Virus record (IMG/VR): IMGVR_UViG_3300032770_000053
Span: 1-39,396 of that record
DNA length: 39,396 nucleotides
From: a virus
Reading direction: 5' to 3' (one strand)
Positions within the stretch are counted from its first letter, which is position 1. Each line of letters starts with the position of its first letter. This document shows positions 1,184 to 39,045 of this stretch, piece by piece. The translations under genes and the position numbers were made by a program. The notes beneath the pieces were generated by a model. The model did not search any database and was not told where the DNA came from. It saw only the letters and a program-made list of their open reading frames with translations.

Positions 1184-2086
1184 ATGGCCCTCAAAGCCAA
1201 GAAGCCGGAAGTAAAAGAGAAGCGGTTAAAGCTGTTCCTGTTCGGACCTCCGGGCTCCCGCAAGACCACATCGGCCTTGCAGTTCCCGAAGAGCGTTCTA
1301 ATCGACATGGAGCGCGGATCGGAGCAGTACACCAAGACCATCAACAAGGCCGGATCGGTTGTCCTTGAGACAAACAACCCGGACGAAGTGATGGCCGAAG
1401 TCAAAACGCTCCTGACCGAAAAGCATGAGTACCGGACGTTGATCATCGATCCTGTGACGATCTTCTACCAAGCGTTGCAGGACAAATGGTCGCGCATCTT
1501 CGAGCATCATGCCAAGACGGATAAAGAGAAAGAGCTTCAAGACTTCGGTATGCGCTACTGGGGGCGCGTCAAATCGGAGTACAAGTCCTTCCTGCGGATG
1601 CTCTTGCAGTTGGATATGAACCTGATCGTGACGAGCCATCAGAAAGACATCTACGGCCCGAATATGCAGAAGGTCGGTATCGGGCCGGACTCCATGAAGG
1701 GCGATAACTACGTCTTTGACTATGTTTTCCGTTTGAACGTGGTCGGGGATAAGGCGATTGCCATCACGGAGAAACAGCGATCCGAGCCGCTAGAGCCTCA
1801 GAAGTTTCCCCCCGAGTTCGAATGGTCCTACGACAACTTCCGCAAGTTCTATGGATCAGAGATCATCGAGCGGGAAGCGGTCGCGGTCCCGCTGGCGACA
1901 GCCGCCCAGGTAGCCGAGATTACGGCGCTTTTAGAGGTCGTGAAGGTCAACGAAGAGGACGTTACCAAGCTCTTTACCAAGCATGACGTGGATGATTGGT
2001 CGGAGCTTACGGCAGAGGCCATCCAGAAGTACATAGACACGCTCAAGAAAAAGATTGCGCCGGTCGGCGCTGGAAAGGCGGCGTAA
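1184..2086 (+). CDS. Sak4-like RecA-fold ATPase (AAA_24 type), single-strand annealing/recombination
   Basis: A 300-residue protein with Walker A GPPGSRKTT at residues 21-29, Walker B TLIIDP at 85-90 and a sensor-like LIVTSHQ at 147-153. This layout matches the phage AAA_24/Sak4 group, RecA-related ATPases thought to promote single-strand annealing or strand exchange during phage recombination and replication. A ~60-residue C-terminal tail after residue 235 ends in a lysine-rich helix. Start ATG 1184 follows a strong SD (AAGGAGG, 1169-1175). It precedes a DUF669-like gene, a common Sak4 partner, with only a two-base gap. Confidence 0.85.
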   Translation: MALKAKKPEVKEKRLKLFLFGPPGSRKTTSALQFPKSVLIDMERGSEQYTKTINKAGSVVLETNNPDEVMAEVKTLLTEKHEYRTLIIDPVTIFYQALQDKWSRIFEHHAKTDKEKELQDFGMRYWGRVKSEYKSFLRMLLQLDMNLIVTSHQKDIYGPNMQKVGIGPDSMKGDNYVFDYVFRLNVVGDKAIAITEKQRSEPLEPQKFPPEFEWSYDNFRKFYGSEIIEREAVAVPLATAAQVAEITALLEVVKVNEEDVTKLFTKHDVDDWSELTAEAIQKYIDTLKKKIAPVGAGKAA

Positions 2087-3243: not shown

Positions 3244-4176
3244 GTGCGGGCGAGAAGTTTAAAGCCGGGGTTTTTCAAGAACGAAAAATTGGCCGCATTG
3301 CCGTTCGAAGCAAGGCTTCTTTTTATTGGCCTCTGGTGCCTCGCGGATCGCGAAGGAAGGCTTGAAGATAGGCCAAAGAGGATTAGCGCAGAGGTTTTTC
3401 CGTATGAGCGCGTAAATGTGGATAAATTGCTCGATGTAATTACATGTCATGGCTTTACATTACGTTATGAGGTTGATGGCAATCGTTATATCCAGATTGT
3501 CAATTTTTCAAAACACCAGTTCCCGCATCCGCACGAAGCCAAGTCAATAATCCCGCCATGTAATTACATTCCATGTAATGTCCATCTGAATCCCTCTTCT
3601 CTGAATCCCTCTTCTCTGAATCCTGGTAAGGCGGCTGCGCCGCTTGAGTACCCGATGCCGGACCCAAAGGCGAACCCAAAGGCCTGCTTAGTTCTGTCGT
3701 TTAAGACCCGCAAGGGGGTTCCGTTTGATGATCGGGCATGGGATCGGTTGAACTTTGCTCGCTGCATGGTAGCGGCCGGAACCCTTCTCGGACTCTGCAA
3801 AGACCTTCAATCCGCCGAAAGCTGCCTTAACGACATGAGCGCCGACTATGACGCTAAAGGCTTGTCGTGGACGTTGGAAACCGTGGCCCGCAACGCGCCG
3901 GAATGGCTGAAAAAGAATGGGAGGATCGATGCTAACTCAAGTCGTGCTGGCCTTCGCTTGGCGATCGCTCAACGAAAAGCAAAAGGCGGAAGTGGAAATG
4001 GTCTGGAGAAAATATCCGCGCGGGAGGTACTTAATCCCATACGAGTGGGCGCGAATCCTGCGAACGGAAATTCCCCTCAAGATCAGCGAGCCGGAGGAAC
4101 GGGAGATGCTATTCACCTGGAACGACCATTGCAAGAAAACGAACATGGATCAAATGTCGATACCGTTCGATCATGA
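3244..4176 (+). CDS. DnaD-like replication initiator with N-terminal winged helix
   Basis: Starts at GTG 3244 behind SD GAGGGAGGG. The N-terminus (FFKNEKLAALPFEARLLFIG, then LADREGRLEDRPKRI) is the typical winged-helix start of phage replication initiator/DnaD-like proteins. A middle linker carries a duplicated LNPSS, and a helical domain with FDDRAWDRLNFARC follows. These proteins bind the phage origin and help load the host helicase. After about residue 228 the frame runs 248 bases into the next gene; those ~80 residues are low-complexity and look like an out-of-frame extension rather than a domain. Confidence 0.7.
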   Translation: MRARSLKPGFFKNEKLAALPFEARLLFIGLWCLADREGRLEDRPKRISAEVFPYERVNVDKLLDVITCHGFTLRYEVDGNRYIQIVNFSKHQFPHPHEAKSIIPPCNYIPCNVHLNPSSLNPSSLNPGKAAAPLEYPMPDPKANPKACLVLSFKTRKGVPFDDRAWDRLNFARCMVAAGTLLGLCKDLQSAESCLNDMSADYDAKGLSWTLETVARNAPEWLKKNGRIDANSSRAGLRLAIAQRKAKGGSGNGLEKISAREVLNPIRVGANPANGNSPQDQRAGGTGDAIHLERPLQENEHGSNVDTVRS

Positions 4177-4267: not shown

Positions 4268-4507
4268 ATGAGATCGCAAACCGATCAAATGCTTTTTTGG
4301 TTTCGCATGAAGCGGCGAGCGACCTTAGCGGATATTTTACGAAGCGGCGAACGGTGGGTTTGGGAATTTAGAGCTAGAAAGTCGGAACTCAACGCGGCCG
4401 GTGGCCCGCAAATCGTCCTCGTCGAAGAACATCCGAAGAACGCGAACATGAATGTTTACGAAGTTCGGGAACCGTCCCGAGATGGGCAGTTCGAGATGGT
4501 CCTATGA
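4268..4507 (+). CDS. Small winged-helix/HTH protein
   Basis: 79 residues, starting immediately after the previous stop (TAAATG). Residues 16-45 (RRATLADILRSGERWVWEFRARKSELNAAG) fit the helix-turn-helix of small phage winged-helix proteins, and NMNVYEV is a typical closing beta strand. These are DNA-binding proteins of mostly unknown targets. It ends with an ATGA overlap. Confidence 0.6.
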   Translation: MRSQTDQMLFWFRMKRRATLADILRSGERWVWEFRARKSELNAAGGPQIVLVEEHPKNANMNVYEVREPSRDGQFEMVL

Positions 4508-4674
4508 CCGCCCTAGAAAAATCCTGGCTAAAAGAAAAGCGCGAGGAGCTAGAGCGTTGTTACGAAGTCTACGGCCCCGATGTTGCGTGTTGGGACATCG
4601 TCGGCTTTCTGAACATCATCGACCGACAGGCCCGCGAGATTCGACGGCTGAAAACGGAGGTGGCGGCGAAGTGA
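4504..4674 (+). CDS. Small charged helical protein
   Basis: 56 residues (MTALEKSWLKEKREELERCY, then DIVGFLNIIDRQAREIRRLK), dominated by charged amphipathic helix and likely coiled coil. It is coupled by ATGA upstream and GTGA downstream, so it is translated between the winged-helix gene and the RusA gene. No family recognised. Confidence 0.6.
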   Translation: MTALEKSWLKEKREELERCYEVYGPDVACWDIVGFLNIIDRQAREIRRLKTEVAAK

Positions 4675-5042
4675 TATTCACCATATTCACCATCGAAGGC
4701 CGTTTACCAGGAATGAACGATTTCATTGGAGCGATGAACGCGAACCGATGGAAAGGCGCTGAGTTGAAACGCAAAGAGACAAAGCGATGCGCGATGGCCG
4801 TGAAGGGTTTAACCCCCATTCGCAAGCCGGTGATGCTTTCAATTGCATGGTTTGAGCCGAACGCGCGGCGTGACATAGACAATGTGGCGGCCGGGGGAAC
4901 CAAGGTCTTGCTGGATGGCCTTGTAATGGCCGGAATCCTGCCTTCCGATGGCCGAAAGTGGGTCAGGGGCATATCGCATCAGTTCCCAGAGATTTGCCCT
5001 TCAAATCCAAGGGTTGAAGTCACTATTCAGGAGATCGCATGA
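4671..5042 (+). CDS. rusA: RusA-family Holliday junction resolvase
   Basis: 123 residues from a GTG overlapping the previous stop (GTGA). The RusA core is visible: FTIEGRLPGMN at the start, RRDIDN (67-71) with paired acidic residues D68 and D70, K78, LLDGL with D82, and PSDGRKWV (91-98) in place of the usual DD motif. RusA dimers cut four-way junctions formed during replication and recombination. Here it fits with the Sak4-like system. The single Asp in the second motif is a mild departure from the common form. Confidence 0.85.
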   Translation: MIFTIFTIEGRLPGMNDFIGAMNANRWKGAELKRKETKRCAMAVKGLTPIRKPVMLSIAWFEPNARRDIDNVAAGGTKVLLDGLVMAGILPSDGRKWVRGISHQFPEICPSNPRVEVTIQEIA

Positions 5043-5224: not shown

Positions 5225-5357
5225 TCCCCGCCGCGTTCCTCTGCGCCGCCATGTCGCTGCCTTTGACGAGCTTTTTCCCATCGTCGAAGATGGGAGCGGT
5301 GCATTTGGAGAAGATGATTTCAATGGCGGACCACTACGGACGAACGAGGCCGTATGA
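5187..5357 (+). CDS. Small acidic protein
   Basis: 56 residues from ATG 5187 (MNGYQTAGSG, then AAFDELFPIVEDGSGAFGED). This frame has more protein-like composition than the overlapping longer frame that begins at ATG 5221. Its stop lies one base before ATG 5359, so it probably couples translation to the methyltransferase-like gene. No family recognised. Confidence 0.45.
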   Translation: MNGYQTAGSGPDDPRRVPLRRHVAAFDELFPIVEDGSGAFGEDDFNGGPLRTNEAV

Positions 5358-6537: not shown

Positions 6538-7083
6538 ATGAAAATCACAAAAGAATGGTTGAAAGAGCAGATAGCTTGTGAAGACGGTACGCGCTGGTTT
6601 CTGAATCAAAGCGCGTCTAGGTTGGACACTGTCGTAATGAAGCTCACCAAAGAAAATCATTACGATTGGGCGAATTGGGTTCTTATGCGCTCCATGACGT
6701 ACGCCCAACGGGTGCGGTATGCGATCTTCGCGGCTGAACAGGTCTTAGCCATATTTGAAAAGGCATACCCGAACGATAAGCGCCCGCGTGAAGCGATTGA
6801 AGCGGCTCGGCGTTTTGTGGACCAAACAACGGAGGAGAATAGAGACGCCGCCTACGAGGCCGCCTACGCCGCCTCCAACGCCGCCTCCAACGCCGCCGCC
6901 AGCGCCGCCGCCTGCGCCGCTGCCTGCGCCGCCGCCTACGCCGCCTACGCCGCCGCCTCCGCCACCTGCGCCGCCGCCAGCGCCGCCGCCAACGCCGCCT
7001 GCGAGGCCGCCTACGCCGCCATGAAACGAAAGATTGTTGTTTATGGGCTTAAACTCGTGGCCGGGGAAAGGGGAATAGCGTGA
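6538..7083 (+). CDS. Alanine-rich helical protein (immunity-protein-like)
   Basis: 181 residues, SD AAAGGA ahead of ATG 6538. The N-terminal ~100 residues (MKITKEWLKEQIACEDGTRW, then NWVLMRSMTYAQRVRYAIFA) resemble phage proteins often labelled putative immunity protein; that label has little experimental support. Residues 103-160 are almost pure Ala with regularly spaced Tyr, Ser, Asn and Cys (AAYEAAYAASNAASNAAA), followed by a basic end. The repeat is encoded by GCC-rich DNA prone to slippage. Role unknown. Confidence 0.7.
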   Translation: MKITKEWLKEQIACEDGTRWFLNQSASRLDTVVMKLTKENHYDWANWVLMRSMTYAQRVRYAIFAAEQVLAIFEKAYPNDKRPREAIEAARRFVDQTTEENRDAAYEAAYAASNAASNAAASAAACAAACAAAYAAYAAASATCAAASAAANAACEAAYAAMKRKIVVYGLKLVAGERGIA

Positions 7084-8389: not shown

Positions 8390-8437
8390 GCCGCTCCCGG
8401 CGTCGCGCATGACGATTTATAGGGGGCGGCATTTTTT
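8390..8437 (+). terminator. Rho-independent terminator ending the early operon
   Basis: GCCGCTCCC (8390-8398) pairs with GGGGGCGGC (8422-8430), nine pairs including one G-T, followed by A then six T (8432-8437). It lies after the HTH gene and before the terminase operon, where an early/late boundary is expected. Confidence 0.75.
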
Positions 8438-8730
8438 ATCCGCGCATAGCGGCGCGGAGCGAAACCGGAGCTGAGGGCCAAGGAGCGGAGCAATACCGCA
8501 AGAGCGCCTCAGCATCACAACGGATAGGCCCTTAACACGGCATCCGGCAAGGCCAGCGCAACCATCGAGTTAAGCGCAACCGCTACCATCGAGCCAAATT
8601 CCGCACGTTTCCCCTTATACGCGCGCGGCTCTGCCTTTTACCTTGCGAGCGCCTCATCCGCTCGCGCCCTTGACTCTCTGTCACAACATTCCCGTTGCAC
8701 ATCAACCAGCACTCGCCTTAAAATATTACC
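8438..8730 (+). other. Gene-free stretch upstream of the terminase genes; possible packaging site
   Basis: No convincing ORF. Hairpins: CCGCGC/GCGCGG (8440-8457), GCTGAGG/CCTCAGC (8470-8513), GCGAGCG/CGCTCGC (8645-8665). Direct repeats: AGCGCAACC at 8555 and 8573, ACCATCGAG at 8561 and 8585. Packaging (pac or cos) sites commonly lie beside the small terminase gene, and repeats next to a terS-like gene fit that, but nothing here proves it. Confidence 0.4.
8695..8724 (+). promoter_or_regulatory. Candidate promoter of the late operon
   Basis: TTGCAC (8695-8700), an 18-base spacer, then TAAAAT (8719-8724, five of six matches to TATAAT). The -35 match is weak. The expected start of transcription falls on the GTG at 8731, and no SD is visible, so the first message may be leaderless. 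Confidence 0.4.
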
Positions 8731-9452: not shown

Positions 9453-9665
9453 ATGAGAGGGCAATCGGAAAGTTCCAGGGCCAGAAGAAAAGCCCAACCC
9501 CCCCTCCACTGTCATGATCAAGTAGTCTCCCCATCCGCGCAAAACAAAAAGGGGTTCCAGTTTCACCGATGGGTGAGCAGTTATCCTCCGGTCAGCGTAT
9601 GTTTGAAGTGTGGAGCGACGGCCTATTCTCCATTGGTATATGGTCCATGGAGATGTGATGGATAA
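9453..9665 (+). CDS. Zinc-ribbon protein
   Basis: 70 residues; the start (ATG 9453) is uncertain as no SD is obvious. The C-terminal half has FQFHRWVSSYPPVSVCLKCG then WRCDG, with ligands HRW, CxxC and a final Cys. This matches a frequent phage zinc-finger layout (H-x-W ... C-x-x-C-G-A). It overlaps the next gene by eight bases. Confidence 0.5.
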   Translation: MRGQSESSRARRKAQPPLHCHDQVVSPSAQNKKGFQFHRWVSSYPPVSVCLKCGATAYSPLVYGPWRCDG

Positions 9666-10187: not shown

Positions 10188-10530
10188 AATCAAGACAATC
10201 CCGCACAAAGAACAGCGCTACGACACTGCCGGGGATTGGTACGAGAAGAACGGGAAGACGGTGTTTCGTATAAGCGATTGCCGCAACCGAAGGTTTGAAT
10301 GGTTGCTGGCAATTCACGAGTTGGTGGAGCGGGCCCTGTGTGATGACAAGGGGATCACCGCGAAGGATGTGGACGACTTTGATTTTAAGTTTAAGGGCGA
10401 CGATCCCGGAGATGCGCCGCGCTCCCCCTACCGCGATCAGCATTGTTTTGCGACGGCCGTAGAGAGGATGTTGTGCGCTGCCATGGGTATCAGTTGGAAG
10501 GAGTACGATGATTTTGTGATGAAGCTATGA
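10174..10530 (+). CDS. Conserved-looking phage protein with a non-standard start
   Basis: The protein reads IEIKTIPHKEQRYDTAGDWY, then FEWLLAIHELVERALCDDKG and YRDQHCFATAVERM. The HELVE helix and the N-terminal 'IKTIPHxEQRY' recur in phage proteins of unknown role. No ATG, GTG or TTG precedes this conserved part: a TGA lies at 10162-10164 in frame, and the first standard start, GTG 10261, would lose ~29 native residues. ATT 10174 (after GAGGGGG) or ATT 10183 are candidates. The annotated start is a guess. Ends with an ATGA overlap to the large terminase. Confidence 0.6.
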   Translation: MLDIEIKTIPHKEQRYDTAGDWYEKNGKTVFRISDCRNRRFEWLLAIHELVERALCDDKGITAKDVDDFDFKFKGDDPGDAPRSPYRDQHCFATAVERMLCAAMGISWKEYDDFVMKL

Positions 10531-12023
10531 CGCAGGCCGATCAACGGGCGAATCTAGAGTATCTTCAGGCCAAATGCAGGGAGCGCCTGAAATTTTTATG
10601 CCGTGACGTTCTGGGGTTCAAGGATTGGAGCAAGAACCCGAATCTGCATGACAGGATCGAGCGGTTCATGGACAAACCGGCCAAGTTCAAGCTGGTCCTG
10701 ATACCCCGCGATCACTTAAAGTCAACGATCATCACGAAGGGATGGAGCATCCAGCAGATGCTGAGGAATCCGGACATCCGGATTTTGCTGGCCAACAACA
10801 CATGGGACAACGCGAGGAATTTCTTGCAGAGCATAGAGGGCTATCTTGGGCCCGGGAGTGTCCTGGCTCAGATTTTCGGGCCTTTCGTGAGTTCCAGATG
10901 GAACAAAGACGACTGCGTGATCCGGCAGAGGAAGACGATTTCGGATGCTCCGACGATAGCGACGACGGGTCTGGAGAAGGAGCAGACTAGCCAGCACTAC
11001 GATTTGATTGTCGCAGACGACCTGGTGGCGCGCGAGAACGTGAAGACCAAGGAGCAGAGGGAGAAGGTCAAGGACTATATCGCCTCGCTCTACGCGCTTC
11101 TGGAGCCGCAAGGCATGATGGTGGTGGTCGGAACCCGGTGGTCGAAGGACGACGCCTACGAAGATTTGATCAATGACGGGACCTGGGACAAGCTGATCAT
11201 GGACGCGCATGACGGCGATCCCTTGAAGCAGAAGGTTCTGTTTCCGGAGAAGTTCAGCCTGGAGAAGCTACAGGATTTGCGGAAGAAGCTGCGGGCCTCG
11301 CTTTATTCGTGTTGGTACATGAACGACCCGATATCGCCGGAGGCCTCGGACTTCTCTGAGGATTGGATCAGGTACTATGACCCTACGACGAAGAATCCGA
11401 TGGCCCTTTATCTATGCGTTGATCCTGCTTCCAGCCTGGGCAAAGATGCTGACTTTTCTGCCGGGACGGTGAGCGGGAAGCTGCCGGACGGGACGATCCG
11501 GGTCGTGGACTATTTCCGGAGAAGGGTGGTGCCGAGTGAGTTGGTCGACCAGATCTTTGATACGGTCCGAAAATGGAAGATGGCTGGACACTATGTCCGA
11601 GTGGGAGTGGAGGCGTTTACTCTTAAGACTCTCAAGACGGACATTCAGAATAAGCAGCGCGCCGAAAAATTTTACTTCCAGGTTGACGAAATTAAAAAAA
11701 TGCGCGGACCTAATGGCGAGCGATCCGAAGTTAAGCAAGCTCGAATACGAAGTTTGCAGCCGCTTTTTGAGCAGGGCTTGATCGAGATCCGGTCCGACAT
11801 GAGCGATTTTGTAGACGAGCTATTGACGTTCCCGAGGGGGAAGCATGACGATCTTATTGATTCACTCAGCCTTGCTCTGGACCATCTTCTACAGACCTCC
11901 GATATAACGCCGGTGAAGGAGATTCAGCCCGGGACGATGGGCGAGCTGATGAAGCGAATCGAGAACCGGCTGCATGGCGCGGAGTACGAGGAGTTCATGA
12001 AAGACCTTCGGATCGTGGCGTGA
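10527..12023 (+). CDS. terL: Large terminase subunit
   Basis: 498 residues. ATPase half: Walker A LIPRDHLKST (58-67), Walker B YDLIVADDL (158-166), coupling motif VVVGTRWS (199-206). Nuclease half (RNase H fold): CVDPASS with D299, GVEAF with E362, and HDDLIDSLSLAL with D441/D442/D445. It packages DNA into the prohead at the portal and cuts it. The length is typical. ATGA coupling to the upstream gene and GTGA to the downstream gene. Confidence 0.95.
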   Translation: MTQADQRANLEYLQAKCRERLKFLCRDVLGFKDWSKNPNLHDRIERFMDKPAKFKLVLIPRDHLKSTIITKGWSIQQMLRNPDIRILLANNTWDNARNFLQSIEGYLGPGSVLAQIFGPFVSSRWNKDDCVIRQRKTISDAPTIATTGLEKEQTSQHYDLIVADDLVARENVKTKEQREKVKDYIASLYALLEPQGMMVVVGTRWSKDDAYEDLINDGTWDKLIMDAHDGDPLKQKVLFPEKFSLEKLQDLRKKLRASLYSCWYMNDPISPEASDFSEDWIRYYDPTTKNPMALYLCVDPASSLGKDADFSAGTVSGKLPDGTIRVVDYFRRRVVPSELVDQIFDTVRKWKMAGHYVRVGVEAFTLKTLKTDIQNKQRAEKFYFQVDEIKKMRGPNGERSEVKQARIRSLQPLFEQGLIEIRSDMSDFVDELLTFPRGKHDDLIDSLSLALDHLLQTSDITPVKEIQPGTMGELMKRIENRLHGAEYEEFMKDLRIVA

Positions 12024-12229
12024 GTGTCCACGAATCGCTAAAGATGCACCGGCACGAGGGGCGCGGGGTTTCGTGGGAAAAGCTCGGCGATTCCGAGGAT
12101 GGAACGACGTTTGATTTGCGATGCAGTTATTGCGGAGATATTTGGCGAGAGCCTATCACGAAAGAAATTAGGGAACTTCGGTCGATGCTTGTGGGGCGGG
12201 TGTCACAATTTATTTTTGACAATTTATAG
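12020..12229 (+). CDS. Small protein with CxxC motif
   Basis: 69 residues from GTG 12020 overlapping the terL stop. Contains TTFDLRCSYCGDIWREPITK, a CxxCG zinc-ribbon half, and an amphipathic C-terminal helix (ELRSMLVGRVSQFIFDNL). One CxxC alone suggests a dimer-shared site or a remnant. No family recognised. Confidence 0.6.
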   Translation: MSVHESLKMHRHEGRGVSWEKLGDSEDGTTFDLRCSYCGDIWREPITKEIRELRSMLVGRVSQFIFDNL

Positions 12230-12244
12230 CATTCGGCGCATACT
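12216..12244 (+). promoter_or_regulatory. Candidate promoter just ahead of a terminator
   Basis: A perfect TTGACA (12216-12221), 17 bases, then CATACT (12239-12244, four of six). A start near 12251 would put the whole transcript inside the hairpin-terminator that follows. Confidence 0.4.
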
Positions 12245-12251
12245 ATAGACG

Positions 12252-12301
12252 AAATTCCGGCCTCGTGGGGCCACGAACCCAGCGAAGCCGGAATTTTTTT
12301 T
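12252..12301 (+). terminator. Rho-independent terminator, with an internal second hairpin
   Basis: AAATTCCGGC (12252-12261) pairs perfectly with GCCGGAATTT (12287-12296); the T-run continues to 12301 (eight T). A second stem, TCGTGG/CCACGA, lies inside. The strength and position, between terL and the HNH gene, are unusual in a late operon that must read on to the portal gene. Confidence 0.85.
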
Positions 12302-12352
12302 ATATCGAGCCGTAGACGAAGAGAAGCCTGTACGGAGGCCGAAGGAGGCCAT

Positions 12353-12607
12353 GTGCAGGACAGATACACAAGAATAAAAAAGCAGGTCTTTGATTATTAC
12401 GGCAGAGAATGCAAGTGTTGCGGAGAGAGAGAACAAAAATTCTTAACCTTGGATCATCTCACACCGGAAGTTCCGTATGGAAAGGGAGGGATGGCATTCT
12501 ACACCCGAGTGAAGAATTTTGGTTTTCCAAATACGATTCAAGTTCTTTGTTTTAACTGTAATTGTGGAAGATCAGTAAACGGCGGCGTTTGTCCGCATAA
12601 ACAGTAA
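12353..12607 (+). CDS. HNH endonuclease
   Basis: 84 residues from GTG 12353 with SD GAAGGAGG. Zinc ligands CKCCGE (20-25) and CFNCNCG (66-72); the HNH core is LDHLTP (33-38, D34/H35) with LCFNCN (65-70, N68), ending VCPHK. This layout is common among small phage HNH nucleases found beside terminases, where some are required for packaging (HK97 gp74 is the known case), while others are homing enzymes. Flanked by a terminator on each side, so it looks like a separate cassette. Confidence 0.85.
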   Translation: MQDRYTRIKKQVFDYYGRECKCCGEREQKFLTLDHLTPEVPYGKGGMAFYTRVKNFGFPNTIQVLCFNCNCGRSVNGGVCPHKQ

Positions 12608-12616
12608 TTAGTTCGT

Positions 12617-12669
12617 AAAAAAAGAGGGCAATTCAGGTGCCTGAATCATCTGAATGGCCCTCTTTTTTT
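12617..12669 (+). terminator. Terminator-like hairpin containing the portal GTG start
   Basis: Perfect 13-base arms: AAAAAAAGAGGGC (12617-12629) and GCCCTCTTTTTTT (12657-12669). The loop holds a second stem ATTCAG-GTGC-CTGAAT (12631-12646). The A- and T-runs make it terminator-like in both directions. The GTG at 12637 sits in the inner loop and its likely SD (GAGGG) lies in the 5' arm. Confidence 0.85.
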
Positions 12670-14712
12670 ATGGAAAAATCCAAACCTTCTGAGACTGGCG
12701 GCACGGACAACGTCACCGGCGACAACCGCAAGGTTGGTGCAGCCGAGAGCCCGGACGCGGATTCCTCCGAAAAACAGGAAGTCACTCACTGGCTGGCCGC
12801 GATCAAAAAAACCGAGGACTGGCGCAACCGCACCGATGCTTTTGCCAACGCGAAGCGCTATGTCGATGAGTACAAGGGCAAATGGGACTGGCTGGCGCAG
12901 TCGATTTCAATCCCCCTTGTCCCCCTTAATCTTGTCTTCGCCTATGTCAAGACCGAGATGGCCCGCCTCTACTTTCACAACCCCTGGATCACCGTTTCCC
13001 CCCGAAGGACCGAAGATGTTTCCCCCGCCAAGATAGCCGAAGTCGTCATCAATAACATCTGGAAGCAGCTAAAGCTTAAGGTTCAGGGAAAACTTGCGTT
13101 GCGAGATGCCTTGCTTGTCGGCCATGGCTGGATCAAGGTCGGTTACACGATGGAGGAAGGCACGGTTGAGAGCCGCCCCGAGAAGCGCGGGCGCGGACGG
13201 CCCCGCAAGGAAGAGCCCGTCGTGGACGCCGACCGGAAGATTAAGTCGGAGTCCGCTTTCGCCTACCACGTTCCCTATCGCCATGTTGTCTTTGACCCTT
13301 CCGCCGTATGGCCCGCCATGGAGACGGCGCGGTGGTGCGCCGTGAAATGGGAGAAGCCGCTTAGGGCCGTCAAGGAATCCGGCATTTATGACCATGCCGA
13401 CGATTTGAAGCCGGACGGCGGGGATTCCGATAAGGAGCCGATGAAGGACCAGACCAATGTCACGAAGGTGACGGGCTGGGAAATCTACGACCTGGACCAT
13501 ATGAAGGTCATTACCGTGTCGCCGGGATGCGCCCACAAACTGCGCGAGATCGATTACCCGGATTACCTGAACGGCGAGCTTCCGCTTGTCGAGTTCTCAT
13601 TCAACCCCGTGCCGGATGAGCCCTATGCGATGAGCGACATCGCGGCGCACGAACCCCAGATCATCGAGCTGTCGAAAATGATGTGCATCATGATCAGCCA
13701 CCTGAAACGGTGGAGCCGGCAGATCTTCATGAAGCCGGGGCTCATGACGGACGAGAACAAGACCAATTTCAAGAACGCGGCCGACGGCGCGATTATCGAG
13801 ATCCAGGGCGATCCGCAAAAAGATTTCTTTATCCCCCCCTACGCGCCGGTCCAGCAGGACATTTACGGCGTCTGGAACCTCTGCATGGACATGTGGAAAA
13901 ACATCTGCGGCCAGAGCGGCATGGACCGCGGCGCGGAAGGCAAGGCGGCGACCCGGACGCTTGGTGAGTTAAGGGCGCAGCTCGAAGGCGGCCGGACCCG
14001 GGCGGACGAAAAGCTTGACGTTCTGGAAGATTCGCTTGAGGAAGTGGCCCGCAAGCTTCTATTCATCGTGCAGAAGAAATACGACCTTCCCAAGATTGCC
14101 CGTGTCGTCGGGAACAAAAACATTATGGACGCTTTGAAGTCCCGCCCTACGGCCCAGCCGGACCACGCATTGGCCCCGATGGCGGTCACCGGCGAACAGG
14201 GTTTCACTTGGAACAAGGACGACATCCAGGGCGAGATGGATGTGGACGTTCTGGCCGGATCGACGGCCCCTCTCGACAAGGAATCGCAGATCGAGCAGAT
14301 GGAGAAGTTGACGCCGATGCTCCCGGCCCTGGGCGTCGGGCCAGGGAGTCCTCCCGCAAAAGCGTGGGGCCGTGAGTTCTTCCGCATGATCGGAATTCCG
14401 TCGCTCGAGATGATCATGGACCTGATCGACCAGATGCCTCCTCAGCCGCCGCCCAAGATGATGGAAATTCAGGCCAAGATCAAACAGAAGCAAGCGGAAG
14501 GCCAAGCGAAGATTCAGGCCAAGCAGGCTGAACTCCAGATGAAGGGCCAGGAGCATCAGTTGAAGCTTCAGGGCATGGCGGCCAAGACGCAGGCGGACGT
14601 GATCAAGGCGAAGGTGGATGTGCAGAAAGCCCAGCAGTCCATGCAGATGGACGTTTTGAAGCAGTTGCTGGGGTCCGTGAGGCAACCGACTAACGGGACG
14701 CAGGGATCCTGA
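12637..14712 (+). CDS. Portal protein
   Basis: Up to 691 residues (GTG 12637); ATG 12670, just past the hairpin, would give 680 and a more normal N-terminus (MEKSKPSETGG). Podovirus-type portal: KRYVDEYKGKWDWLAQSISI, VKTEMARLYFHNPWITVSPR, PYRHVVFDPSA and the RTLGELRAQLEGG helix near the tunnel. The C-terminal ~85 residues are a Gln/Lys/Ala coiled coil (IKQKQAEGQAKIQAKQAELQ), as in P22-like portal barrels. A dodecameric ring at the capsid vertex is the known family role. Codon usage here avoids A/T wobble more than in the upstream genes. Confidence 0.85.
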   Translation: MPESSEWPSFFMEKSKPSETGGTDNVTGDNRKVGAAESPDADSSEKQEVTHWLAAIKKTEDWRNRTDAFANAKRYVDEYKGKWDWLAQSISIPLVPLNLVFAYVKTEMARLYFHNPWITVSPRRTEDVSPAKIAEVVINNIWKQLKLKVQGKLALRDALLVGHGWIKVGYTMEEGTVESRPEKRGRGRPRKEEPVVDADRKIKSESAFAYHVPYRHVVFDPSAVWPAMETARWCAVKWEKPLRAVKESGIYDHADDLKPDGGDSDKEPMKDQTNVTKVTGWEIYDLDHMKVITVSPGCAHKLREIDYPDYLNGELPLVEFSFNPVPDEPYAMSDIAAHEPQIIELSKMMCIMISHLKRWSRQIFMKPGLMTDENKTNFKNAADGAIIEIQGDPQKDFFIPPYAPVQQDIYGVWNLCMDMWKNICGQSGMDRGAEGKAATRTLGELRAQLEGGRTRADEKLDVLEDSLEEVARKLLFIVQKKYDLPKIARVVGNKNIMDALKSRPTAQPDHALAPMAVTGEQGFTWNKDDIQGEMDVDVLAGSTAPLDKESQIEQMEKLTPMLPALGVGPGSPPAKAWGREFFRMIGIPSLEMIMDLIDQMPPQPPPKMMEIQAKIKQKQAEGQAKIQAKQAELQMKGQEHQLKLQGMAAKTQADVIKAKVDVQKAQQSMQMDVLKQLLGSVRQPTNGTQGS

Positions 14713-16342: not shown

Positions 16343-17320
16343 ATGGCGGTAAACGACACACTGTTTACTTACGGTACCGGGAACGTCACATCGCTGTTGG
16401 CGACCACGTTTTCGAACATGTCCCCCGATCTGGCGGACAACATCTACAAAGCGATTCCGGCGTTAGCCTGGCTCGCCATGAAGAAGAGGGTTACGGCAGA
16501 CGGAGGGGCATCGATTCTCAGGAGTGTTATCTACGCGAAAAACTCGACGTTCTCGTTCTATGCGTCGGATGACGTGATCGATACGACGATCCAGGACGAA
16601 CTCACCACGGCTCAGTGGCAATGGAAACAGGCCGCGACGTCGGTGTCCGTTACTGGCCGCATCGAGATGCAGAACATGGGCAAGTCTCAGGTTATTGACG
16701 TTGTCAAAGCCAAGACTCAGTCCGCGTTGCTGTCTCTCAAAGACGGCATCAACAAGGGCCTTTGGGCGTCGGGTCTCACGAACCAGACCCAGGTGGGCAC
16801 GGCGGTTACTCCGCTGGCGACCATCGTTAACAACACCGGCACCGTTGGCGACATCAATGGCGCGACCTCGACCTGGTGGCAGTCGGTTGTCCAGGCTTCC
16901 GGGAGTTTTGCGGCTCGCGGCCTGTCCGATATGCGCTCGGTCTGGAACCAGATCAACGTCAATAACCCGCAAGGGCCCGCTGACTTGGTCCTGTCGGATC
17001 GCCCCTCCTACGAGGCTTACGAGTCCGTGCTTGTTCCGGCGGTTCGTATCTCCGATACGAAGATGGGCGACTTAGGATTCTCTAACCTGAAGTACAAGGA
17101 AGCGACCTGGACGTTCGATTCAAACGCGATCTCCGGGGACATCTTCCTTCTGAACAGCGGGTCATTGGAATTAGTGCAGCACAAGAACAGGCTGTTCTCG
17201 ATCTCTGAATTCGGGAAACCGACCAATCAGGACTTGAGAGTGGCGCAGGTGTTCTGGGCTGGAGAACTGACCACGAATAATCGTCGAAAGCACGGGCTCC
17301 TGACCGGAGTTACGGCCTAA
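16343..17320 (+). CDS. Major capsid protein
   Basis: 325 residues, strong SD. The sequence fits phage coat proteins of the HK97-fold type: N-terminal NMSPDLADNIYKAIPALAWL, long beta-rich region with FSFYASDDVIDTTIQDELTT and WKQAATSVSVTGRIEMQNMG, helix AKTQSALLSLKDGINKGLWA, and C-terminal LELVQHKNRLFSISEFGKPT then QVFWAGELTTNNRRKHGLL. Position after the scaffold and the length agree. It forms the icosahedral shell. Confidence 0.85.
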   Translation: MAVNDTLFTYGTGNVTSLLATTFSNMSPDLADNIYKAIPALAWLAMKKRVTADGGASILRSVIYAKNSTFSFYASDDVIDTTIQDELTTAQWQWKQAATSVSVTGRIEMQNMGKSQVIDVVKAKTQSALLSLKDGINKGLWASGLTNQTQVGTAVTPLATIVNNTGTVGDINGATSTWWQSVVQASGSFAARGLSDMRSVWNQINVNNPQGPADLVLSDRPSYEAYESVLVPAVRISDTKMGDLGFSNLKYKEATWTFDSNAISGDIFLLNSGSLELVQHKNRLFSISEFGKPTNQDLRVAQVFWAGELTTNNRRKHGLLTGVTA

Positions 17321-18091: not shown

Positions 18092-18281
18092 ACTAGACGG
18101 ATTCCTGGATCGGCATTTTGGGACCAAAAGTCCCAACTTGCCGACCAGGGTCCTCTGGTGTTGTAGGTGCGGAAAGCCTCGATCCATGAGGCAGATAGAG
18201 ACGGGCATGTGTTGCGGGCATCAACTGCGACCCGAGCGAGAAACTAAGTGGACATTACTCCGAACACTGATCCGAATGTAA
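18081..18281 (+). CDS. Zinc-ribbon protein
   Basis: 66 residues. CCRCGKPRSM and, ~18 residues later, MCCGHQLRPE give two Cys clusters (CxCCRC-type and CCGH). The N-terminus (LDGFLDRHFGTKSP) is amphipathic. The stop lies inside the glycosyltransferase gene that follows (34-base overlap). Role unknown. Confidence 0.6.
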   Translation: MGSKLDGFLDRHFGTKSPNLPTRVLWCCRCGKPRSMRQIETGMCCGHQLRPERETKWTLLRTLIRM

Positions 18282-36343: not shown

Positions 36344-36517
36344 ACGGCGGACAAGTGGTGGGGTCGTTTTTTATGTCCAGTCTGCCAAGCAGTGTGTACC
36401 GTACAAAGATGGACGCAAGGATTTTTTAGGGTAACGTGCGAAAAATGCGGTTTCTCGACGTCTTCAATTACGCCCGATGGTATGGATGGAGCTGGTACGG
36501 ATGGCTCGGACCGCTAG
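36344..36517 (+). CDS. Zinc-ribbon protein with probable ACG start
   Basis: 57 residues, ADKWWGRFLCPVCQAVCTVQ then VTCEKCGFSTSSITPDG; two CxxC pairs form a zinc ribbon. No ATG, GTG or TTG precedes the native-looking MADKWW-type start; the codon there is ACG at 36344, four bases after the SD GGGGAGG. Its stop overlaps the endolysin SD. An ATG-to-ACG change or a true ACG start would explain it. Confidence 0.5.
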   Translation, partial: TADKWWGRFLCPVCQAVCTVQRWTQGFFRVTCEKCGFSTSSITPDGMDGAGTDGSDR

Positions 36518-36525
36518 GAGGCAAG

Positions 36526-37011
36526 GTGAGTAAAAATTTGATTGGCCTTATGGATGCCTGTTGCGATGCGGTCGAAAATCCTTCCTTCCAGCCGAAACCG
36601 GACGGGACGACCTACTGCAATATGGCTCTTTCGGCTATCGCCATAAAAGCTTTTGGCAATCATGATTTCGACGGAAAGACGGCGGACGAAATCGCTGGAT
36701 TTGTAGCGGCCAGCGATCAGTATACGTTGATTCCTATGGAGCAAGCGCAGGAACTAGCGAATCAGGGGAGCCTCGTTTTTGCCATTGCTTCTTCCCAGGA
36801 TCTTAAGCAAAGCCACGGCCATGTTTGCATCGTGAGGCCTGGGATTGAGAAGGACAGCGGGAAGTGGGGCCCATGCCCGTCCGTTGTCAACATAGGGGCG
36901 GAGGTATTCATTGCAAGGGCAAAGCGCGGGCCGCTCCAGGGGTTGCCAGCCGGGGTTAATGAAGCGTTTCAGCCAAAACCAGACTTCTATGTATGGAGGG
37001 GATCAATATGA
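36526..37011 (+). CDS. Probable endolysin (Cys/His/Asn hydrolase)
   Basis: 161 residues. GTG 36526 chosen because GGAGG (36516-36520) lies just upstream; GTG 36436 would add a zinc-gene shadow. Likely catalytic Cys31 in GTTYCNMALS, His97/99 in SHGHVCIVRPG, Asn122 in VVNIG, a CHAP/NlpC-like triad. AQELANQGSLVFA is the usual central strand. No signal peptide, so export would depend on the holin. Position between a spanin-like protein and holin candidates supports a lysis role. Confidence 0.7.
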   Translation: MSKNLIGLMDACCDAVENPSFQPKPDGTTYCNMALSAIAIKAFGNHDFDGKTADEIAGFVAASDQYTLIPMEQAQELANQGSLVFAIASSQDLKQSHGHVCIVRPGIEKDSGKWGPCPSVVNIGAEVFIARAKRGPLQGLPAGVNEAFQPKPDFYVWRGSI

Positions 37012-37449: not shown

Positions 37450-37896
37450 ATGAAGAAAATCCCGGCATTTTTAGCGTTGTTTTTGATAGCTTCTCCTCTC
37501 ATGGCGGCCAATCTCGAATGGGATCTAGGCTCGGTCGGATCGGTTCAGCTTCCTTGGCAAGCAACGGAAGTCTTTTACGGGGCCGTGCGCCCGATCAACG
37601 CCCTAAAGAGCGGCCTGACCCAGCAGATCGCGGGCGCGAGCCTCCCGGTCCTGACCCTGGGCAAACTCGCCAGCGGCTACCGGATTTTGGACGGCCAGCT
37701 TGGGGCCTCGGCCACCTGGCCCGTTCAATCCTCGCCGGTTAATGCCTATTGCGCCATCGGGCATGACGTGGTTCAGGATATTCCCGGCCTGCCTCCGGCG
37801 CTCCATAGCGCTCATGTGAACGGGGCCGTCACCTACATGCCTGCCCTGGGCGGGTGGTTCGCGGGCGGCACGGTAAGCTACGCCTTCGGCGGCTAA
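37450..37896 (+). CDS. Exported protein of unknown function
   Basis: 148 residues. N-terminus MKKIPAFLALFLIASPLMAA is a Sec signal peptide. The mature part has beta-like alternation (WDLGSVGSVQLPWQATEVFY; GYRILDGQLGASATW; GGWFAGGTVSYAFGG) suggestive of a small periplasmic or outer-membrane protein. Third exported protein of this genome; a superinfection-exclusion or lysis role is possible. Confidence 0.65.
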   Translation: MKKIPAFLALFLIASPLMAANLEWDLGSVGSVQLPWQATEVFYGAVRPINALKSGLTQQIAGASLPVLTLGKLASGYRILDGQLGASATWPVQSSPVNAYCAIGHDVVQDIPGLPPALHSAHVNGAVTYMPALGGWFAGGTVSYAFGG

Positions 37897-37897
37897 A

Positions 37898-38110
37898 GTG
37901 TTTGAGCGATTCGGTCTGGAGTGGGGGTGGCAAGGGCCGCCTCCACACGATAAGCCCGACCCATCCCGGCGCAACGCCTACGCTCTTCCCCATGGCCGCA
38001 AACCTACCAAAGATACCCGCCGAAACCACCGTCAATTCAAATCGATCAGACCCGCTTATATCATCCGGTTCGCTTATTGGTCGGCGGTGACGGCGATTAG
38101 GGGCGGATAA
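37898..38110 (+). CDS. Small basic protein, unknown
   Basis: 70 residues from GTG 37898, right after the exported-protein stop. Arg/Lys/His-rich (PDPSRRNAYALPHGRKPTKD; NHRQFKSIRPAYIIRFAYWS). Could bind nucleic acid. No family recognised. Last gene before the early promoter. Confidence 0.45.
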   Translation: MFERFGLEWGWQGPPPHDKPDPSRRNAYALPHGRKPTKDTRRNHRQFKSIRPAYIIRFAYWSAVTAIRGG

Positions 38111-38142
38111 ATTATTTTATCGACGGTAAATAAATTTTTCTC

Positions 38143-38172
38143 TTGACAAGAATATAGCCTTGGGGATATATT
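38143..38172 (+). promoter_or_regulatory. Strong sigma70-type early promoter with an operator-like dyad
   Basis: TTGACA (38143-38148, perfect), 18 bases, TATATT (38167-38172, five of six). GGGGA (38162-38166) and TCCCC (38172-38176) flank the -10 as a 15-base dyad, a likely binding site for a repressor. The region before it is A/T-rich (UP-like). The predicted start is near 38179, ahead of the long hairpin RNA. Confidence 0.75.
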
Positions 38173-38193
38173 CCCCCCGTGACTCTAGCTAAT

Positions 38194-38289
38194 ACCGATC
38201 AAATTGAAAGACGCGCAAAGCCCGAGGTCCTGCCTTTACTGGCTAGGGTCACAACCTCGGCCCCTGGCGCGTCTTTCCGCTTGATCGGT
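38194..38289 (+). ncRNA. Long hairpin RNA just downstream of the early promoter
   Basis: Arms ACCGATCAA (38194-38202)/TTGATCGGT (38281-38289); GAAAGACGCGC (38206-38216)/GCGCGTCTTTC (38267-38277); CCGAGGT (38222-38228)/ACCTCGG (38254-38260); apical CCT/AGG and GCC/GGC. Internal loops of 3x3 and about 5x6 bases separate the stems. No T-run follows, so it is not a terminator. It is a 96-base rod, close to the start of the early transcript. Roles such as antitermination (put-like), RNase III target or a polymerase-binding RNA are all possible. Confidence 0.65.
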
Positions 38290-38491
38290 CCTGCCAAATC
38301 CGCGAATCTTTACAAAACTTCCCCCAGGATGCGGGGTAATATAGGTTATCAGCAGCTGCAAGCCCGCCAGAAATACCCGCCAAACGTTCCAGGATTTGAT
38401 TCTAGGCCCCTATTCCACTTTATCCACACTCACACACCTTTCTTTTTCTTTGCCGGGGTCCGTCATGGACGTAACTTAGGAGCTAATCAAC
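38290..38491 (+). other. Untranslated leader of the first early gene; origin candidate
   Basis: No supported ORF. It holds a perfect DnaA-box consensus, TTATCCACA at 38420-38428, next to a C/T-rich run (CACACACCTTTCTTTTTC), a duplicated CCCGCCA near 38368, and a small CCCC/GGGG dyad near 38325. A replication origin would fit the host-dependent replication implied by the gene set, but this is inference. Confidence 0.4.
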
Positions 38492-38746
38492 GTGAAAACC
38501 CGACGCGAAATGAAAGTCGGGAGGGATGCCATACGCCAGGAATGGAAGCTCGCGGGACGAATAAGCGTGCTTTCCCAGGACATTCGTTACGCCAACAAGC
38601 CGTCAGATCTTCAATACCCGATCCACGAATTGATTCAAATAACGCGCCGTTTGCAGGTCTTTCGAGAGCAATGGCTGGGAAAATGGCTCGATTGCCGGGG
38701 CGAACGGTTGAAAGGTTGGCCTAGGTTATGGGAACGCTACTTGTAG
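38492..38746 (+). CDS. First early gene: helical protein, unknown
   Basis: 84 residues from GTG 38492 with SD TAGGAGC. Starts MKTRREMKVGRDAIRQEWKL, then helices DIRYANKPSDLQYPIHELIQ and WLGKWLDCRGERLKGW. Basic and probably helical, possibly nucleic-acid binding. Position at the head of the early transcript suggests a host-takeover role. Confidence 0.65.
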   Translation: MKTRREMKVGRDAIRQEWKLAGRISVLSQDIRYANKPSDLQYPIHELIQITRRLQVFREQWLGKWLDCRGERLKGWPRLWERYL

Positions 38747-38814
38747 GGCTCGCGCTGGTATTGGGCGGCATGTCGCTATTTGCTCTGTATGCCTATCTCA
38801 GGTTCGCGCGATGA
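38728..38814 (+). CDS. Very small membrane protein
   Basis: 28 residues (MGTLLVGLALVLGGMSLFAL, YAYLRFAR): one transmembrane helix with a basic end. It overlaps both neighbours (19 bases upstream, ATGA downstream). Size and topology recall small phage membrane peptides of unknown role. Confidence 0.5.
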   Translation: MGTLLVGLALVLGGMSLFALYAYLRFAR

Positions 38815-38984
38815 ACGCGCAAGCAAACCTGAACATGTCGCTTCACTGGTTCAACGCTTGGCGCTCAGACATTGCCAGGGCGAAGTCCTTGCCGGAGCTG
38901 GCCTTCTACTACGGACGCGCCGCGGCGGTGGCGCAAGCTAACCATCTTATGTATCAAGCGCTTTATTGGGGGGATCATGCCTAA
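38811..38984 (+). CDS. Small helical protein
   Basis: 57 residues, ATGA start. MNAQANLNMSLHWFNAWRSD, then RAKSLPELAFYYGRAAAVAQ and HLMYQALYWGDHA; Ala/Tyr-rich helices. No family recognised. Confidence 0.55.
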   Translation: MNAQANLNMSLHWFNAWRSDIARAKSLPELAFYYGRAAAVAQANHLMYQALYWGDHA

Positions 38985-39045
38985 CCAAGTCGCCGTCACC
39001 CTCTGCTTGTACGGAATCTTGTATTGCCTTTGGAGGTCACGATGA
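38977..39045 (+). CDS. Very small membrane peptide
   Basis: 22 residues (MPNQVAVTLCLYGILYCLWR, SR), mostly hydrophobic with a basic end. It overlaps the previous gene by eight bases and the next by ATGA, so translation is likely coupled. Low confidence because of size. Confidence 0.35.
   Translation: MPNQVAVTLCLYGILYCLWRSR

Follow-up and report, generated by a model that had tools for sequence, protein, structure and literature searches.

What is the function of a long rod-like RNA that lies directly behind the strongest promoter of an uncultured phage? The structured leader with which a phage early transcript opens decides how the host polymerase and the RNases treat the first viral message, and few such early leaders are known outside the model phages. 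The rod considered here belongs to a phage lineage that is almost without relatives in public collections. The sequence analysed, referred to as the window, is the whole of IMG/VR virus record IMGVR_UViG_3300032770_000053 (positions 1–39,396; 39,396 bases). An earlier note, written from the letters of this DNA, had drawn attention to the rod and offered a put-like antiterminator, a 6S-like decoy or an RNase III switch as its possible identity. The explanation favoured here, with a rough probability of 0.45, is that the rod is a cis-acting structured 5′ leader of the main early mRNA, which refolds in a set order during transcription and protects the 5′ end or guides RNase III-type processing.

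Genome organization

All recognisable genes of the phage are on the + strand (Table 1). The proteins scanned included none recognised as an integrase, an RNA polymerase or an N/Q-like protein. End repeats of the 39,396-base record were looked for and none were found. The last ORF exits the right end and the first ORF comes in from the left end; read jointly, the two seem to lack only roughly 20 codons. The ends of the record are therefore probably nearly adjacent in the real genome, which would place the rod between the late genes, ending at 37896, and the early genes continuing at position 1. The first ORF contains a 54-bp tandem repeat (174–683, 9.4 copies) that is in frame and encodes an 18-aa repeat. 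A GC-rich 12/24-bp tandem repeat of the CGCCGCC type (6845–7020) lies within ORF 6538–7083, which has an Imm5-like Pfam match.

Table 1. Features of the rod locus and recognisable genes of the window
Feature	Position	Strand	Basis or remark
30-bp imperfect direct repeat, copy 1	37995–38024	+	23/30 identical
Sigma-70-like promoter, TTGACA-18-TATATT	38143–38172	+	11/12 matches
Palindrome GGGGA-N5-TCCCC around the -10 box, perhaps an operator	38162–38176	.	function presumed only
Initial 13 bases of the predicted transcript, GTGACTCTAGCTA, forming the 5′ side of the alternative helix	38179–38191	+	
Apical rod segment TGGCTAGGGTCAC, forming the 3′ side of the alternative helix	38240–38252	+	
Rod-like RNA hairpin, 9 + 11 + 7 pairs plus apical stem	38194–38289	+	folding, genome scan
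Remaining untranslated leader up to the first ORF with a Shine-Dalgarno-like sequence	38290–38491	+	
30-bp imperfect direct repeat, copy 2	38355–38384	+	23/30 identical
DnaA-box consensus, TTATCCACA	38420–38428	+	one of two in the record; may be chance
First candidate early ORF, 84 aa	38492–38746	+	AGGAG upstream; weak codon support
Sak4-like gene	1184–2086	+	
Replication initiation-like gene	3244–4176	+	
RusA-like gene	4452–5042	+	
Terminase large subunit gene	10527–12023	+	
Portal gene	about 12670–14712	+	
Major head protein gene	16343–17320	+	

A rod-like RNA behind the strongest promoter

The promoter in front of the rod is the top-scoring one in the whole 39-kb record. Its predicted transcription start is 38179, so the rod begins at +15. 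A transcript is expected from this position and, judging from gene order, it would be an early one. The 96-nt rod has a folding energy of -51.9 kcal/mol (z -7.6), a value reached by 0/200 dinucleotide shuffles. It is built from helix 1 (38194–38202/38281–38289, 9 pairs), helix 2 (38206–38216/38267–38277, 11 pairs) and helix 3 (38222–38228/38254–38260, 7 pairs), with an apical stem beyond the third. Pair probabilities in the three helices are 0.72–1.0 and the internal loops are all small (3x3 and about 5x6). A coarse scan of 1034 sampled 110-nt windows across the record places the rod first among + strand folds (z -8.6), followed by folds at 12582 and 18092. This rank, at a position 15 nt behind the best promoter, argues for a leader. 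The opposite strand is slightly more stable (-59.2 kcal/mol) owing to a gain of three G-U pairs, so the acting strand is set by the promoter and not by the fold.

The T-run that marks an intrinsic terminator is missing behind 38289, and the + strand has nothing resembling a terminator before 38764. An ORF of 181 codons (GTG 38179 to 38724) spans the rod, its GTG falling exactly on the predicted +1. The codon score of its first 104 codons (-0.054) is under that of 97.5% of this phage's true gene frames. With no terminator and no codon-supported ORF inside it, the rod reads as a leader; because the candidate ORF at 38492 also scores poorly, the untranslated leader could exceed 313 nt. The description in the earlier note holds up at this level: the coordinates and the anatomy of three arms with small internal loops are correct, the rod directly follows the strongest promoter, it has no terminator T-run, and the ORF crossing it has poor codon use. 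Fold and promoter position also support the wider idea that the strongest transcript opens with a structured RNA. The rod is a real, strong and probably functional leader RNA of no described family.

A predicted alternative 5′ helix and probable ordered refolding

A second fold, absent from the earlier note, involves the very 5′ end of the predicted transcript. The sequence GUGACUCUAGCUA (38179–38191) pairs without gaps with UGGCUAGGGUCAC (38240–38252) through 11 Watson-Crick and 2 G-U pairs, and this complementary stretch has its first base precisely at the predicted +1. The resulting duplex has an energy of -22.6 kcal/mol. None of 2000 shuffled tails and none of 2000 shuffled rods did as well, and 76 of 20,000 genomic 15-mers outside the locus (0.4%) matched it; since the complementarity was spotted post hoc, these probabilities are a guide and not a test. 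The 13-base element has no other occurrence in the record.

Folding of successive prefixes from 38179 gives a clear order. The 5′ helix is favoured when the transcript is about 70–92 nt long and is 5–12 kcal/mol ahead at 74–90 nt, the two folds are about equal in energy at 94 nt, and from 96 nt onwards the rod is 5–21 kcal/mol ahead, the full 21 kcal/mol being reached at 111 nt. The direct path from the 5′ helix to the rod has a barrier of about 19–21 kcal/mol, which is an upper bound as the path excludes strand displacement via pseudoknotted intermediates. By our own estimate the 5′ helix and the full rod are mutually exclusive by geometry; a pseudoknot containing both was ruled out, with a 2-nt linker set against a distance of about 100 angstrom. 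The final fold leaves a 15-nt unpaired 5′ tail.

These folds suggest the following course of events. Host RNA polymerase would start at about 38179, and while the transcript grows from 74 to about 92 nt its first 13 nt would pair with 38240–38252 and close a 5′ hairpin. As the 3′ arm (38254–38289) emerges, the far more stable rod would displace this hairpin and release the 15-nt 5′ tail, provided that refolding in vivo follows the order of the calculated energies. The rod would then most likely shield the long polycistronic early mRNA from 5′-end-dependent decay, or serve as an RNase III-type processing site that sets the mature 5′ end of this mRNA, or both. Translation would start about 200 nt downstream, after the rod step. 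Hairpins at the 5′ end stabilise mRNAs by impeding 5′-end conversion, and RppH-type enzymes favour unpaired 5′ ends (PMC3997798). The free 15-nt tail of the final fold weakens the case for simple 5′-end protection and fits processing better, or else a part played by the 5′ helix itself in early elongation. With respect to processing, helices 1 and 2 (9 + 11 pairs around the 3x3 loop) supply the long, nearly continuous helix of ~20 pairs expected of an RNase III site in mRNA. The RNase III switch of the earlier note is thus compatible with the locus, and a putative RNase III-type or refolding leader is the preferred class.

Related genomes and comparable rods

No homologous locus of the rod was found in the viral contig, phage and plasmid collections searched. 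Near and distant DNA searches with the locus gave no real match in phages and plasmids, and searches of viral contigs with the neighbouring proteins (37450–37896, 36436–37011 and 3–743) gave none. TerL and MCP searches returned only L003/L010, a 14-kb contig that ends short of the rod region; this sole close relative has a terminase 84% and a head protein 96% identical to those of the window. A search for the MCP in 396 genomes of one phylum found none.

The relative does share a second rod, located at 18092–18160 in the window (-44 kcal/mol, z -7.4) and at 9462–9530 in L003 (-38.9 kcal/mol, z -7.0). It overlaps codons 4–27 of a conserved zinc-ribbon-like ORF of 66 aa that follows the head genes. 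Between the two sequences, the only ones available for this comparison, 98% of the pairs are kept, the core is identical and three two-sided compensatory changes are present, with none in slid controls. Because this second rod is kept by compensatory change, long mRNA rods seem to be preserved in the lineage; the element is possibly a late-mRNA processing or regulatory site. In the terminase-portal gap of both genomes (window 12216–12671, L003 3894–3991) a strong hairpin also comes immediately after a TTGACA promoter. In the window this gap holds an inserted HNH-like ORF (about 12350–12607, read from translation) flanked by strong terminators at 12297 and 12665, and the portal start comes directly after the T-run of the second, with no clear Shine-Dalgarno sequence.

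A further comparison is offered by the 80+ contigs that share the Sak4-like gene. Their early regions are not homologous to that of the window and no alignment of the rod is possible. All promoters with 11 or 12 of 12 matches in the 5.5 kb upstream of Sak4 were surveyed in these contigs and the window for a significant fold within 120 nt behind the promoter. Among the 48 promoters (the window's and 47 from the contigs) that of the window ranks first (z -6.3) and that of L011, the nearest covered relative (65%), ranks second (z -4.8). The rod of L011 is about 110 nt long (about 5228–5340) and lies right behind a strong promoter, which is internal to its early gene run; it has no sequence similarity to the window rod. 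It is the only comparable rod among the 47 promoters, and most relatives have none. The two rods point towards a common design rather than towards homology. The L011 parallel, the second rod at 18092–18160 and the hairpin behind the terminase-portal promoter speak for the leader explanation. It is held back by several points: no homologous locus that could show paired changes turned up in the collections searched, the second example sits behind an internal promoter and shares no sequence, the strong promoters of most relatives lack a rod, the opposite strand folds slightly better, and the 5′ complementarity came to notice only in hindsight.

Other candidates were set aside as counterparts. The one match to the arm pattern was in L004, where an integrase-like gene ends, and was judged to be chance. 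Many strong hairpins in Sak4-sharing contigs come from repeat arrays or are gene-proximal, and those of L015 and L016 precede a gene resembling a cell-wall hydrolase (read from translation). In L011 (5405–5498), L015 (6129–6226) and L016 (7145–7210) a strong hairpin is found at or just before a short membrane-anchored cell-wall hydrolase-like ORF, possibly for translational control of lysis. A strong hairpin immediately upstream is frequent among the Sak4-like genes of uncultured phages; in L049, L061, L066, L072, L098 and L108 it lies about 130–160 nt before Sak4. The early regions of L091, L092, L084, L100, L048 and L082 contain very stable hairpins of short repeated words 2.5–4.9 kb upstream of Sak4, which are perhaps operator or iteron arrays.

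Alternative explanations

The intergenic region could act at the DNA level, as a control or replication region. The palindrome, the GGGGA/TCCCC arms, the repeats and the DnaA box would then serve as origin sites or bind proteins, and the RNA fold would be a by-product. The two copies of the 30-bp repeat bracket the promoter and the rod (0/300 shuffles matched), a DnaA-box consensus follows, a replication initiation-like protein is encoded in the early region, and the rod region also folds well as a DNA strand (z -7.0). However, the rod starts just past the predicted transcription start, and the helix between its apex and the initial bases of the transcript includes two G-U pairs, which are gained by RNA only. 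The protein binding that this reading calls for is hypothetical and the repeat units have no further copies in the record, leaving this explanation unlikely but deserving of some weight.

Antitermination was examined with a put covariance model, for which the putL and putR sites annotated in O276 and HK75 were aligned. (An HK022-pattern match at L113:6295 was rejected as a source of put sequence, its strand being opposite to putL, and the annotated sites were used instead.) The model recovers both put sites of HK022, O276 and HK75 (79–90 bits, E 1e-24 to 1e-27) but has no match at the rod locus, and its only match in the window scores 8.1 bits at 16811 (E 5.8). The put RNA comprises two stem-loops within about 70 nt (PMC9378689), whereas the locus has one 96-nt rod, placed at +15 downstream of a presumably early promoter as put would be. 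The put-like antiterminator suggested in the earlier note is therefore not upheld as far as put membership goes; the failed tests lower the probability that the rod is put, not that it could work like put.

An antiterminator of unrelated fold would stay on RNA polymerase, either as the nascent rod or as the short-lived 5′ helix, and suppress downstream pausing and termination, which put does by way of the beta′ zinc-binding domain. It would suit the position right behind the early promoter, as for putL, and the proteins scanned, among which no N or Q homologue was recognised. Three strong + strand terminators lie downstream, at about 8433, 12297 and 12665, and put acts over at least 10 kb (PMC9378689), the 8433 site being 9.5 kb from the rod. 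The need for such a device is small, however. Because strong terminators start at 8433, the early genes to 8.4 kb would need no antiterminator against strong intrinsic sites; ahead of 8433 there is only a modest hairpin with a T-run (2604–2625), and promoter-like sites follow the 8433 terminator at 8696 and 12216. The proposal in the earlier note that the rod helps the early operon through its terminators accordingly loses much of its motive as far as intrinsic terminators are concerned. Given also the single rod and the silent covariance model, put-like action is distinctly unlikely. It is quite improbable, too, that the rod is a protein-independent RNA, architecturally unlike put, by which the host RNA polymerase is modified in cis. 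In that case the transient 5′ helix, closed by the very first transcript bases, would give way to the rod during promoter escape, and either the helix or the rod would remain with the enzyme through the long one-strand genome.

The two exclusive folds, with their ordered take-over, could instead form a translational or attenuation switch of the kind seen in the leaders of hok, aapA3 and MS2. Such a device would set the timing of the first early ORF, or else of a leaderless one from GTG 38179. Functional metastable structures have precedents (PMC6733600) and a GTG does stand at the predicted +1, but neither fold holds a ribosome-binding site, the first Shine-Dalgarno-like site is about 190 nt downstream, the ORF at 38179 has poor codon use and there is no terminator to attenuate. 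Such a switch is very doubtful.

An Rfam search of 37800–39000 at E up to 5 gave no match at the locus, 6S included (two chance snoRNA matches lay elsewhere), and the 6S models at gathering score found none in the whole window. The rod has only small internal loops where 6S RNA has a large central bubble between two closing helices, and no terminator would release a discrete small RNA; on these points the 6S-like decoy raised in the earlier note finds no support as a member of the 6S family. A trans-acting RNA released from the early transcript, whether a 6S-like decoy, an antisense regulator or a sponge for a host factor, would profit from the strong promoter, the very stable RNA and a free 15-nt 5′ tail able to pair with targets, but the same missing terminator, Rfam match and central bubble make it a poor prospect.

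Comparison with known systems

The preferred reading, a refolding or processed early leader, makes the rod ordinary in kind: it is a structured phage leader with a testable switch, its two exclusive folds being open to simple mutants. HK022 putL and putR are likewise structured RNAs right behind an early phage promoter with no dedicated phage protein known, but put is about 70 nt long with two stem-loops and a conserved sequence, in contrast to a single rod of 96 nt that the put model does not match. The 6S RNA is similarly a rod-like RNA from a strong promoter, and differs in its Rfam match, large central bubble and defined 3′ end.

Closer parallels exist among RNA leaders. RNase III sites occur in early phage leaders, as in the T7 early region and the lambda N leader, and there too a long imperfect hairpin lies between the early promoter and the first gene; a corresponding cleavage of the present rod is putative. 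With the 5′ stem-loops of papA and engineered bla (PMC3997798) the rod shares a stable hairpin close to the beginning of an mRNA that is presumably abundant, whereas the hairpin here starts at +15 and leaves the 5′ end free in the final fold. Although the rod leader has neither a toxin ORF nor a Shine-Dalgarno sequence in its switching part, it resembles the metastable leaders of hok, aapA3 and MS2 (PMC6733600) in that a 5′ segment is predicted to pair early and to be displaced later by a stabler fold.
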